Shown here: positions 2,259 through 26,718 of the stretch, piece after piece
Layout of the letters: each line of letters begins with the position of its first letter
Position numbering within the stretch: the stretch's first letter is position 1
DNA from: a virus
DNA: 27,575 bases
Direction: 5' to 3' (one strand)
Virus record (IMG/VR): IMGVR_UViG_3300031951_000986
Coordinates: 1-27,575 of that record
Program-made: the position numbers and the translations under genes
The notes under the pieces: generated by a model
Told to the model about the DNA's origin: nothing
Database searches by the model: none
Seen by the model: the letters and a program-made list of their open reading frames with translations, nothing else

Positions 2259-2671
2259 CGGTCCAGCCCTTCGATCAGATCGGCCACGTTAGCCTCCCTT
2301 GCCTCGCACGTTTTGCCCGGCGTAAACGTCGCCAGCTTGGCCGCGAGCGCGTCGGCTTTGCCTTGGGCCTTCCGGGCGTCGCTGGCGGCTTTCTTCGCGG
2401 CTTGGGCCATTGCCTCGCCCGCAGCCTGTGCGACCGCCACAGCCTCATTCTGGCGGGTTAGCGCCCCGTCCAGCGCGGCGACGTTCGCCCGGCATGTTCC
2501 AAGCGCATCCGCGAGGCGTCGGCTTTCTGCGACCTGGGCCTTAAGGTCAGAGCGAACCTGCCCGACTTCCAGCCTCGCGCCGATGAGCATGAAGGCCAGA
2601 ACAGCGCAGCCAGCCAGCGCGACAGGCCCGGCGAAACGAGATGTGATGAGGGAGAGAACGGCGGCGATCAA
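2255..2671 (-). CDS. Inner-membrane spanin (Rz-like)
   Basis: The 138-residue protein has one N-terminal membrane segment (about residues 12-31, PVALAGCAVLAFMLIGA). A long helical, Ala/Glu/Arg-rich periplasmic part follows with coiled-coil character (VRSDLKAQVAESRRLADAL, then Ala/Lys repeats). That is the layout of the inner spanin, whose coiled coil reaches across the periplasm to the outer-membrane lipoprotein. The start is TTG at 2671, overlapping the endolysin stop as TTGA, with AAGGAG about nine bases upstream. Two Cys in the periplasmic part (GTCRAN, KTCEAR) could form disulfides. Call based on architecture and gene order. Confidence 0.75.
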   Translation of the reverse strand: MIAAVLSLITSRFAGPVALAGCAVLAFMLIGARLEVGQVRSDLKAQVAESRRLADALGTCRANVAALDGALTRQNEAVAVAQAAGEAMAQAAKKAASDARKAQGKADALAAKLATFTPGKTCEAREANVADLIEGLDR

Positions 2672-3285
2672 AGCACAATCTCCTTCGCGGCCTTCGTCGC
2701 GGCGATGCGCTCGGCAAGCCCGTTCAGGCCCCCGTTGATCTTGCGCGTTACGGCCTCAACATCGTCAGCCCGCGCCGGGGCGATGCACCCATGCCGGGCG
2801 AAGAAGTTAGCCGCCGCGAAGGCGCTGGCCTTGATGTCCGTTCGCAGGGTGTCGGGGTCATCCTCGTGACCAGCCTCGCGGAAGTTGGACCGGCCCGTGA
2901 TCTGCTTCACGCCAGAACCCCGAAACCTCCACCCGTCGCCGGGCTCTGTGTTGCCCAGGTTCTTGCGGCCCCACTCCCCGCCGTAGATGATGTTGGCGAT
3001 GGCGTTCTGGTTCGCAGGCTGACCGGGCTTGCGACCGAACTTGTCGCAGTCGGCGGCGCTGATCCGGTGGCGCCCGAACATCTTGAGCAGGCCCTCGACG
3101 CTGTAGTTCAGGCTTTCCGAGAGCGTGGTAAACCCGGCGCTCTCGACCCGCATCTGCCCCAGCCAGTGAGCAAGAGCGAGACGGTCGGCAATCCCGCTCT
3201 TTGCCGCCGCAGCTTCCAGCGCCTCACGGGTGCCGGGCAGAGCGCGGGGGGCGAACGCGGCGAACTTCGATGGGTCAATGCCCAT
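2668..3285 (-). CDS. Endolysin, GH19 (chitinase-like) peptidoglycan hydrolase
   Basis: The enzyme cuts the glycan strands of peptidoglycan during lysis. The 205-residue protein matches the phage GH19 layout: WLGQMRVESAGF with the likely general-acid Glu near 48, SESLNYSVEGLLKMF with a second conserved acid, and then NAIANIIYGG. It continues with GDGWRFRGSGVKQITGRSN (the hallmark W-R-x-R-G and Q-TGR-N signature) and the C-terminal TRKINGGLNGL. No signal peptide or membrane segment is visible, so release to the periplasm should need a holin, and small membrane-protein genes lie directly upstream. ATG at 3285 has GAGGA about eight bases before it. GH19 endolysins are common in phages of Gram-negative hosts. 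Confidence 0.9.
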   Translation of the reverse strand: MGIDPSKFAAFAPRALPGTREALEAAAAKSGIADRLALAHWLGQMRVESAGFTTLSESLNYSVEGLLKMFGRHRISAADCDKFGRKPGQPANQNAIANIIYGGEWGRKNLGNTEPGDGWRFRGSGVKQITGRSNFREAGHEDDPDTLRTDIKASAFAAANFFARHGCIAPARADDVEAVTRKINGGLNGLAERIAATKAAKEIVL

Positions 3286-3346
3286 GTTGCATGTCCTCGT
3301 GATGTGGTAGGAGTTGCTTGCGCCGGGTTGATCGTCGGCAGCTTAC

Positions 3347-3388
3347 GGCGGCGGCTTCGGACTGGGATCTCTCGGTAGGGCCGCCGCC
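3347..3388 (-). other. Inverted repeat upstream of the endolysin gene
   Basis: GGCGGCGGC (3347-3355) and GCCGCCGCC (3380-3388) are perfect nine-base complements, separated by 24 bases, in the 105-base gap between the tiny membrane-protein gene and the endolysin. In the leftward message this would form a long-loop GC hairpin. There is no T run, so it is not a standard terminator. It could stabilise the message or delay endolysin expression, but no function is shown. Confidence 0.35.
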
Positions 3389-24510: not shown

Positions 24511-24626
24511 TCCATCAACTCCAGCTTTGCGCCGATCCGATAGAGCCAGCCTGTCAGCACCGGCATATTCAGCCAGTCGCCGAACTCGATCAGGGCATGA
24601 CCGATGGCGTTGAGGGCGCGGATCAT
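24507..24626 (-). CDS. Tiny hypothetical protein, 39 residues
   Basis: The short frame reads MIRALNAIGHALIEFGDW, then LNMPVLTGWLYRIGAKLELME. It is amphipathic, mildly hydrophobic and Trp-bearing, and may associate with membrane or a partner. Both ends overlap their neighbours by ATGA (24626-24623 and 24510-24507), and without it there would be an unexplained gap in a fully coupled chain. That pattern is the main evidence that it is a gene. No family recognised. Confidence 0.6.
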   Translation of the reverse strand: MIRALNAIGHALIEFGDWLNMPVLTGWLYRIGAKLELME

Positions 24627-25111
24627 GCGGCCACCTGTTCCGGCTGGACATCGAACAGCCATGCGACCTCAGAGGCAGGCCAGCCCGCACGGCGGAACCA
24701 TCCAATGAACCGGGCCTTGTCGGGGCTCATCGGGCAGATGCGCTGGACGCGGGCAATGCGCTTGACGCCGGGAACGCGGGTGCGAGGCGATGCCAGCTTC
24801 AAAAGCGCCGCCTTGCGGATCACGGCGCGCTCTGTGCAGCCGTTGCCGATCTTGCGGGCGATGATGGCGCAAGTGACGGTCTGGTCAGGGTACATCCGGC
24901 GTAAGGCGTTTGTGGCCTCTGGCGTCCAGTTAAACGCGTTTGACGCGGTGCGGGGGCGCTTCATGCCGTGGATACGAACGGCGGAGCTGATGGTTACGGG
25001 GTTGCAGCCGTCGCCGAAGTGGCGGGCAATTTCGACCGGCCCGCGCTGTTCGTCCAGGTACAGGCGGCGAAGATCGGCGAGACGTTCGGGGGTCCAGTTG
25101 AAACGGGTCAT
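24623..25111 (-). CDS. GcrA-like DNA-binding protein with tandem helix-turn-helix repeats
   Basis: The 162-residue protein has two copies of a GcrA-type N-terminal domain. Copy 1 (about 4-56) has FNWTPERLADLRRLYLDEQ and IARHFGDGCN; copy 2 (about 61-110) has FNWTPEATNALRRMYPDQT, IARKIGNGCT and RAVIRKAALLKL. The order W-T-P-E, Leu-rich helix, I-A-R and R-A-V-I matches GcrA, the alphaproteobacterial regulator that binds CcrM-methylated GANTC promoters. A third helix-turn-helix-like part at the end (ARFIGWFRRAGWPASEVAWL) could bind DNA or the sigma region. Start ATG 25111 overlaps the upstream stop (ATGA). It could mimic or redirect host GcrA. Domain reading is good, target unknown. Confidence 0.75.
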   Translation of the reverse strand: MTRFNWTPERLADLRRLYLDEQRGPVEIARHFGDGCNPVTISSAVRIHGMKRPRTASNAFNWTPEATNALRRMYPDQTVTCAIIARKIGNGCTERAVIRKAALLKLASPRTRVPGVKRIARVQRICPMSPDKARFIGWFRRAGWPASEVAWLFDVQPEQVAA

Positions 25112-25614
25112 GCGGCGCCTTTGTAGCTGGCCAGCTTCTCGCGAAGGCTCGCGGCTTCGGCGCGATGGTTTCGGGATCTGGCCTTGTGGTCGTGATAGGC
25201 TGGCGGCATGTCCTCCAGCGCAATCGGGCCGCCGTTGCCCCACATCGGCCCGGCAAGGCGATCCTCGCGCATCGCCAAAAGCGTATGTTCATCGATCTTC
25301 CGGGACAGGCTCATGGCCTGATATTCGGCGTCGCTGGCTGGCTCCCACGCCTTGGCCTTGGCGTTCGGCTCCACAGAGCCACGCGCGTTGACGGAGCGCA
25401 CCAGCGGCAAAAACTGACCAGCCATCGGAAACTTGGGGTTGGTCCCCATGCGCCACCGCTGACAGGCGGTCTGAATCGCATGGGCGGGAAACTCTTTCAG
25501 GTCGTTGCACCAGTCGGCCATCCACCGGCCCCGGTCTTCCACGCTCATCAGCGGCGGGCGGCAGTGAACGGCAAGACTTTCAAGAGCGTCCAGGATTTCA
25601 GCTTGGTCAGCCAT
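25108..25614 (-). CDS. Phage replication protein, possible helicase loader
   Basis: The 168-residue protein begins MADQAEILDALESLAVHCRP and continues with a helical body: DRGRWMADWCNDLKEFPAH, AIQTACQRWRMGTNPKFPM and AGQFLPLVRSV. The pattern D-L-x-x-F-P-x-x-A-I-x-x-A-C-x-x-W followed by KFP is common in phage proteins encoded next to O-like initiators and thought to load the helicase (lambda P-like role). No Walker motif is present, so it is not DnaC-like. ATG 25614 is preferred; an upstream TTG at 25635 overlaps further and lacks a better ribosome site. It follows the initiator directly, as P follows O. Function from position plus pattern. Confidence 0.6.
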   Translation of the reverse strand: MADQAEILDALESLAVHCRPPLMSVEDRGRWMADWCNDLKEFPAHAIQTACQRWRMGTNPKFPMAGQFLPLVRSVNARGSVEPNAKAKAWEPASDAEYQAMSLSRKIDEHTLLAMREDRLAGPMWGNGGPIALEDMPPAYHDHKARSRNHRAEAASLREKLASYKGAA

Positions 25615-26407
25615 GTTGCGCTTCCAGTCTGGCAAAGGCGAGGCGTCGGGCCTCAGCGTGTTCAGCGGCGATGCGGTCGGTAAGGCTCACCACGGACGGC
25701 CCGGCTCTGGGTTCAGGTATGGCTAGCTCGCGTGTGTTGTCGGCAATGGCTTGGCTGATGGCCGCGTCAAAATAAGACCAGCTACCGACAGGGCTGCGCC
25801 GCTTGGCGCACACGCCGCGAATAACCGGCAGAACGTCTCGCTCCCACCCAGCCCCGGCGGCTCGCCAGCGGGCGATTGACCCAGCCGTCGTAATCAGGCC
25901 CGGCGTTTTGGCAGGGTCCAGCCAGGGCGAAGCAATCTCACCGACCAACGCCTCGACGATGCGTGTCTCTGGCCAATCGCTCGCGCGCTCGCGTTCAACA
26001 ACAACATCTTTCTGATGGTTCTCTGACGGTTCTAACGTAGTGAGCCCGGACATGGTGTCCGGTGAGATCGGGCTCAAATGTCCGGTGAGATCGTTCCCAA
26101 ATGTCCGGTGAGGTTCTGCACTAGCGGACATGGTGTCCGGTGAAATTGTGAGCGTAATAACGTCGCTCGCGCGGTAGCCATCAGGGCGCCGCCGCTCTTT
26201 TTTCGTCATCAGGCCAGCCTGAATGAGCGAAGCAACCACGCGGCGGATTTGGCGCTCTGTGAGGCCGGTATCGAGCGCCAACCGCGCCTGCGACGGCCAG
26301 CACTTGCCATCGGCATCGGCGTAGTTAGCCAAAGCCAGCAAAACCAGCTTTTCCGAGGGCGTGACGCCTTGAACCGCAAAGGCGGCGCTAATGGCCTGAA
26401 CGCTCAT
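25607..26407 (-). CDS. Replication initiator, O-like, with N-terminal helix-turn-helix
   Basis: Residues 12-75 form a winged-helix domain of the phage-initiator type: GVTPSEKLVLLALANYAD, CWPSQARLALDTGLTERQI and RRVVASLIQAGLMTKKER. A linker with unusual composition (about 85-125) is encoded by the DNA repeats described at 26046-26145. The C-terminal half has SPWLDPAKTPGLITTAGSI and a helix-rich end, typical of the partner-binding portion. In lambda-type systems the initiator gene contains the origin and its product binds the iterons there, then recruits the helicase loader encoded next. The same arrangement is seen here. ATG at 26407 overlaps the previous stop (ATGA). Initiator call good, detailed mechanism inferred. 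Confidence 0.8.
   Translation of the reverse strand: MSVQAISAAFAVQGVTPSEKLVLLALANYADADGKCWPSQARLALDTGLTERQIRRVVASLIQAGLMTKKERRRPDGYRASDVITLTISPDTMSASAEPHRTFGNDLTGHLSPISPDTMSGLTTLEPSENHQKDVVVERERASDWPETRIVEALVGEIASPWLDPAKTPGLITTAGSIARWRAAGAGWERDVLPVIRGVCAKRRSPVGSWSYFDAAISQAIADNTRELAIPEPRAGPSVVSLTDRIAAEHAEARRLAFARLEAQHG
26012..26033. repeat. 11-base tandem repeat beside the iterons (possible unwinding element)
   Basis: CTGATGGTTCT (26012-26022) is followed at once by CTGACGGTTCT (26023-26033). The surrounding 26000-26040 is richer in A/T than average for the window. It flanks the iteron block on the C-terminal side of the gene. Lambda has an A/T-rich segment beside its iterons where strands open. 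Here the match is positional only. Confidence 0.4.
26046..26145. other. ori: Iteron cluster inside the initiator gene: candidate replication origin
   Basis: TGTCCGGTGA occurs four times in the same orientation at 26056, 26079, 26102 and 26134, spaced 23, 23 and 32 bases. Two copies extend to TGTCCGGTGAGATCG. The first and last copies are preceded by the complement, making palindromes CCGGACA-TGG-TGTCCGG (26046-26062) and CGGACA-TGG-TGTCCG (26125-26139). Spacings not divisible by three place the copies in all three frames of the gene, giving SPDTMS, PHRTFG and LTGHLS, so the conservation is of DNA and not of protein. Iterons within the O gene define the lambda origin, and this matches that logic. 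Origin activity is inferred. Confidence 0.65.
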
Positions 26408-26718
26408 GCCGCCACCCGCTCAGCCGCCAAGCGCGCCGCGTGCTGGCGTTCGCCATAAAGAACCGTAGTGTGGTCCCTGCCCCCGAGAAGGCGGCCTATG
26501 AAGGGGTAGGAGTACCTGGGCTTTCCGTCCCTGCCCTTGACCTGACGACAAGCCCACATCGCCTCTTGACGTGCATGAGCAACGCGCTTGGTGCGAATAG
26601 GGCTTTCAAAATGCGCGGGGGTTAAGCCGTGGCTTTCAGCGACCTCGGCAATGATTTCGCGGGCGGTTTTAACTTTGGCCAGCATCTGGCCGCGCCAGAG
26701 CGACAGCACGACCGTCAT
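26404..26718 (-). CDS. Stand-alone DnaA domain IV-like protein
   Basis: The 104-residue protein carries the DNA-binding domain of DnaA without the ATPase. It has a helical lead KTAREIIAEVAESHGLTP with FESPIRTKR, ARQEAMWACRQVKG in place of the usual A-R-x-I-A-M-Y-L, and then PFIGRLLGGRDHTTVLYG, the diagnostic DnaA signature (79-88 core GGRDHTTVLY). Full DnaA is about 450 residues, so this is only the last quarter. It could bind DnaA boxes to hijack or block host initiation, or help the phage initiator. ATG 26718 overlaps the upstream stop (ATGA), and it is encoded directly before the initiator gene. Domain call strong, biological effect unknown. Confidence 0.85.
   Translation of the reverse strand: MTVVLSLWRGQMLAKVKTAREIIAEVAESHGLTPAHFESPIRTKRVAHARQEAMWACRQVKGRDGKPRYSYPFIGRLLGGRDHTTVLYGERQHAARLAAERVAA

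Follow-up and report, generated by a model that had tools for sequence, protein, structure and literature searches.

A short word that recurs at regular intervals inside the gene of a replication initiator raises the question of whether the repeats form a replication origin, serve as binding sites of another kind, or reflect the protein that is encoded there. We examined this for the initiator gene of an IMG/VR virus contig, the whole of which (27,575 bases) is referred to below as the window.

The repeats and the initiator that contains them

The window carries four exact copies of TGTCCGGTGA, spaced 23, 23 and 32 bp apart as an earlier preliminary description had recorded, on the plus strand and all within 88 bp (Table 1). 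No further exact copy occurs elsewhere in the window, for which base composition predicts 0.032 copies per strand by chance. The same description had held that the copies encode three different peptides, and in the coding sense they indeed begin in frames 0, 2, 1 and 0 and yield SPDTM, PHRTF, LTGHL and SPDTM, the first and last copies sharing one frame. Moreover, the observed copy number was reached by none of 60 synonymous shuffles and none of 60 codon shuffles of the initiator gene. The palindromic ends noted at the first and last copies were also recovered by direct reading. Specifically, the inverted half of CGGACATGGTGTCCG (26125-26130) lies between copies 1 and 2, inside their gap of 32 bp, and CCGGACATGGTGTCCGG faces the AT-rich patch, while at the internal copies 2 and 3 the inverted half matches just 2/6 and 1/6 bases, respectively. 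The AT-rich patch itself is modest, and the gene is GC-rich.

Table 1. Features of the initiator locus, in window coordinates, with iteron copies numbered in gene direction
Feature	Position	Strand	Basis
Initiator gene, 266 aa, HTH_36 / PHROG 'replication initiation O-like'	25607..26407	-	Pfam E=5e-16, PHROG, AlphaFold2
Winged-helix DNA-binding domain, residues 1-90	26138..26407	-	AlphaFold2, pLDDT mostly >90
Linker-encoding segment, residues 91-147, carrying nearly the whole array	25967..26137	-	AlphaFold2, pLDDT about 40-60
C-terminal helical module	25610..25966	-	68% identical in L006/L007
Iteron copy 1, TGTCCGGTGA	26134..26143	+	Exact match
Iteron copy 2, half-site only	26102..26111	+	Exact match
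Iteron copy 3, half-site only	26079..26088	+	Exact match
Iteron copy 4, adjoining the AT-rich patch	26056..26065	+	Exact match
Palindrome CGGACATGGTGTCCG, CGGACA-TGG-TGTCCG, 15 bp	26125..26139		Direct reading
Palindrome CCGGACATGGTGTCCGG, CCGGACA-TGG-TGTCCGG, 17 bp, copy 4 plus inverted half 26046-26052	26046..26062		Direct reading
Most AT-rich 40 bp of the initiator gene, presumed DNA unwinding element	25994..26033		60% AT vs 38% in the gene

The encoded protein combines an N-terminal HTH_36 domain with PHROG initiator matches (PHROG 391 and 1032). In its AlphaFold2 model the recognition helix comprises residues 51-63 and the wing strands residues 67-70 and 83-86, the linker at residues about 91-147 is probably disordered, and confidence is low for the C-terminal half. 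Iteron copy 1 spans the point at which the winged helix ends, and the remaining array lies within the linker-coding DNA, the part of the gene in which constraint on the protein is lowest. The C-terminal module can be exchanged, with the protein of L005 matching residues 1-139 only and those of L006 and L007 matching residues 142-266 only. In the latter two (both at 2572-3375, in a similar gene neighbourhood) this module is joined to a DUF1376 N-terminal domain where the window protein has its winged helix. An array was not found in the L006 initiator gene, and the L007 gene reads the same, indicating that repeats and winged helix move as a unit. This suggests that DUF1376 takes over from the winged helix in these genes, the origin then being of another type or at another place.

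Directly upstream of the initiator gene and overlapping its start, a minus-strand gene (26404-26718) encodes a 104-aa protein that is hardly more than the C-terminal (box-binding) domain of DnaA. The gene that follows the initiator (25108-25635, minus strand) encodes 175 aa, is conserved with L006 and has a position that fits a helicase loader; family searches gave no match for it, and no helicase loader was identified there. Further along (24623-25243, minus strand) lies a gene for a GcrA-like protein in which two HTH-like segments (FNWTPE..) resemble each other and match DNA repeats spaced 168 bp apart at 24835/25003 and 24918/25086.

Arrays in related initiators

Relatives were collected by protein only, using alignment scans (gamma-type, actino/soil-type and close initiators) and named phages, with the caveat that one of the two patterns in one scan was a linker peptide whose alignment derived from a locus found by TGTCCGG. 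The resulting 173 genes were reduced to 53 representatives sharing <80% identity over their first 130 residues. An array was scored as at least three direct copies of an 8-mer spaced 19-25 bp apart, one gap of 30-36 bp being allowed by design. As a positive control, this test recovered the four known iterons of lambda in gene O (codons 117-140), with the same kind of signal as in the window initiator. Just after the DNA-binding domain, arrays of at least three copies were present in 48 of the 53 representatives versus 21 of 159 codon-shuffled genes, and arrays of at least four copies in 34/53 versus 1/159, with a median array start at codon 98. Under the stricter condition of an unchanged protein, 27 of the 53 genes beat their synonymous shuffles. 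Two or three reading frames were used in 38 of the 48 arrays, and all copies shared one frame in the other ten.

Repeats at the same place in relatives, to which the preliminary description had pointed as a check, were therefore the rule in the survey, and relatives with an intact initiator and no repeats, which it had named as the opposing outcome, were few. The array test failed in Whytu, L313, L396, L406 and SI8, which have another spacing or no detected array, and in Whytu CCGGACA still occurs four times, at different intervals. Arrays were also present in HTH_36 genes from several plasmid records of Streptomyces, Thermobifida, Enterobacter and Pseudomonas, and none was detected in the HTH_36 gene of one Rhizobium and one Azospirillum. 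Firmicutes wHTH proteins from one contig scan (mostly Oscillospiraceae) were rejected as initiators, being mostly stand-alone proteins of about 85 aa with no array.

Across these lineages the repeat sequence differs and the helical spacing is kept. Spacings in the survey arrays clustered at 21-23 bp, with a second class of 30-36 bp that formed the first gap in 23 of the 24 arrays having one, and the recurrent layout consisted of a first gap of about 33 bp followed by 22 and 22 bp. Read in gene direction, the 32, 23 and 23 bp of the window are typical of this survey (compare Sansa with 33, 23, 22; L255 with 32, 22, 22; L370 with 33, 21, 22; and L407 with 32, 22, 22). Several arrays, including those of the window, L255, L028 and L090, contain an inverted copy that is set about 10-12 bp away from copy 1 within the long gap. 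At the other end, an inverted partner of the last copy was found on its outer side in 18/46 cases and on its inner side in 0/46, and beyond internal copies in 4/83. An AT excess was present 20-40 nt past the last copy (+0.198 AT, s.e. 0.012, n=48), and the most AT-rich 40 bp were located there in 36 of 48 arrays against 14.7% expected.

These features might in turn reflect a single blueprint, independent of site sequence, for HTH_36 phage and plasmid initiators, in which a palindromic first site is followed by a 33-bp step, two 22-bp steps and a palindromic last site that faces an AT-rich melting patch. We regard it as an evenly balanced proposition that they do, that they form a class distinct from lambda's all-palindrome array, and that their recognition code can be read from databases alone. 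Our search, which covered the open literature, found no description of such a conserved geometry or of a self-carried recognition code.

The word itself also recurs. When DNA was scanned blindly for TGTCCGG words in spaced groups of three, 16 of 120 loci fell inside a wHTH initiator ORF, compared to 0/120 for the dinucleotide-matched control word TGGTCCG (p=2e-5), and a seventeenth locus, L038, is HTH_36 by Pfam. At least three TGTCCGG copies were present in 6 of the 53 protein-found representatives versus 3 of 5300 shuffles. Since most members of this class, the closest relatives excepted, share 29-44% identity with the window domain, the word is common to distant initiators. Clustered TGTCCGG also occurs outside initiators, about 103 of the 120 loci being other genes or unassigned, many of them with codon-multiple spacing, and a literature search for the word returned unrelated papers only. 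TGTCCGG arrays with a period of 8, 17 or 13 bp were seen in unassigned viral DNA of L069, L092 and L031. Other replication-like genes (L027 3282-4376, L060 5685-6578 and L077 8166-9074) contain CCGGACA words 11-12 bp apart and TGQQTGQ-like peptides, gave no HTH_36 match, and are possibly a second initiator type using the CCGGACA word.

Probable binding by the initiator, proposed origin function and alternatives

To relate the repeats to the protein, we compared iteron similarity between genes with sequence identity in every 10-residue stretch of the domain, after accounting for identity elsewhere in the domain. Residues 49-58, the recognition helix, correlated best (partial r 0.34), and a second peak was located at residues 76-85, the wing (0.275). 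For helix residues 47-58 the value was reached in 0 of 2000 permutations, a figure that is optimistic with relatives being partly dependent and relatedness partly controlled. Pairings of helix and iteron were also visible by eye within subfamilies: VQYQ with GGGTGCAA, VQRQ or VIRL with GGGTGACA, SRSTVQR with GGGTGTCA, and [QH][IV]RR with CCGGACA or GGCGGACA. Because similarity between repeats follows the recognition helix and wing more closely than other parts of the domain, these data provide strong indirect evidence that the initiator would bind its own array. They also agree with the earlier proposal that selection acts on the DNA, since the repeats vary between lineages with their helical spacing kept and co-vary with the recognition helix and wing.

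We consider it very probable that the array is a lambda-type theta replication origin that belongs to another initiator family and has half-sites as its internal iterons. From the sequences we infer binding, melting, helicase recruitment and origin activity along the following lines. The origin would sit within the initiator gene in the coding DNA of the disordered linker, where the N-terminal winged helix would bind TCACCGGACA half-sites. The palindromic copies 1 and 4 (in gene order) could accommodate two subunits apiece, against one for each of copies 2 and 3, placing about six subunits near-phased on the DNA. Assembly of these subunits would melt the AT-rich patch adjoining copy 4, while recruitment of a helicase loader or helicase would fall to the exchangeable C-terminal module. 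The lambda-like origin put forward in the preliminary description is thereby retained as far as repeats in relatives, helical spacing, an AT patch on the same side as in lambda and helix/wing covariation are concerned, and has to be qualified in that the protein belongs to HTH_36 and not to the O family and that only the end copies are palindromic.

The initiator-bound array might instead be only an operator, or an incompatibility or handcuffing site by which initiator expression or copy number is kept in check, with the origin located elsewhere. Initiators often autoregulate, the sites come after the start codon, a position at which a roadblock could work, and covariation speaks for binding while being silent on what the binding does. 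Such a role is nevertheless improbable as the sole one, given that the AT-rich patch keeps to a fixed side of the array, that the geometry fits a multi-site nucleoprotein complex, and that proven origins occupy the equivalent place in lambda and SPP1 (PMC7466680, PMC6316719).

It is less probable still that the repeats bind another protein, such as a phage repressor or the DnaA-domain-IV protein encoded next door. Although the proximity of the latter gene is suggestive, the repeats are unlike DnaA boxes (no exact one is present in the window) and their sequence follows the initiator's own recognition helix; moreover, L006 and L007 keep a similar upstream neighbour where the wHTH is replaced and the repeats were not found. 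Finally, the repeats could be a feature of the protein, with repetitive low-complexity linker peptides being the object of selection, as the arrays confined to one frame (10/48) would allow. This we find hardly credible, for the window copies occupy three frames and most survey arrays two or three, the copies are set 21-23 and about 33 bp apart without regard to codons, the copy number beats protein-preserving shuffles in about half of the genes (27/53), and the linker is predicted to be disordered.

Comparison with known systems

An origin inside an initiator gene is of a general kind already known, and more interest attaches to the geometry common to the arrays and to a recognition code that could be read from the genes than to the single case. 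Beyond a small number of model systems, most phages have no mapped origin, and a positional rule that points to the linker-coding segment just after the HTH_36 domain would allow origin prediction in many uncharacterised phages and phage-plasmids. As each initiator gene displays its own sites, the family would constitute a ready data set on winged-helix DNA choice, with recognition-code predictions that are testable by exchanging recognition helices.

RepA_N plasmid initiators also have sites inside rep. The winged helix of the window protein resembles the folds of PDB 4pql and 4pt7, which we take to be such initiators, with Z 8.5 and 8.3, no better than TFIIE or CRP, and Pfam gave no RepA_N sequence match in the protein. 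The plasmid pSCL1 and related Streptomyces plasmids have an HTH_36 gene with repeats about 22 bp apart after the wHTH, followed in pSCL1 by an ATPase gene. The pSCL1 repeats differ, however, in being full palindromes (GAGTCAAAATGACTC) that start later (codon 146), with three copies detected only. The related rep1 of pSLA2 reportedly contains a phage-like origin inside the gene, as Chang, Kim and Cohen are said to have described in 1996.

HTH_36 proteins are further mentioned for the replication regions of Stx phages and as Rep proteins of Paracoccus plasmids, in passages that describe no origins (PMC8951638, PMC6209633). In repABC plasmids, oriV lies inside the repC coding sequence and requires an AT-rich region, as revealed by silent mutations (PMC3155836). 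The location within the initiator gene is thus shared, and the window protein has a marginal RP-C N-terminal match (24.8 vs 24.4 bits), but repC is without iterons (PMC3155836) whereas these are the main feature of the window. RepC of repABC was rejected as an assignment, with the RepC equivalog far below cut-off, the RP-C N-terminal match barely over it, and iterons present. In SPP1, oriL lies inside gene 38 and consists of direct repeats and an AT-rich unwinding element, bound by the gene product (PMC6316719). This arrangement of direct repeats and an AT-rich patch inside an initiator gene is that of the window; SPP1 is, however, a phage of Gram-positive bacteria, and the likeness concerns the described layout.

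The initiators of lambda and of the window belong to different families. Lambda O matches Phage_rep_O (PF04492), whereas the window protein matches HTH_36 and not PF04492; a profile comparison of the two, with a single sequence on the lambda side, gave no significant match (probability 2.2), and lambda O was absent among the structural matches listed for the initiator, an absence that is uninformative. The sites differ as well, in that each lambda iteron is a 19-bp inverted repeat to which an O dimer binds, so that every one is palindromic (PMC7466680) compared to the end copies only in the window, and in that lambda spacing is 20, 24 and 23 bp, whereas the first gap of the window is 32 bp. 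What the two loci have in common is their layout: four main copies of a helically spaced repeat, in all three frames, inside the initiator gene straight after the DNA-binding domain, and an AT-rich region that flanks the iterons (PMC7466680, PMC5043065), in the window on the 3′ side of the last iteron in gene direction.
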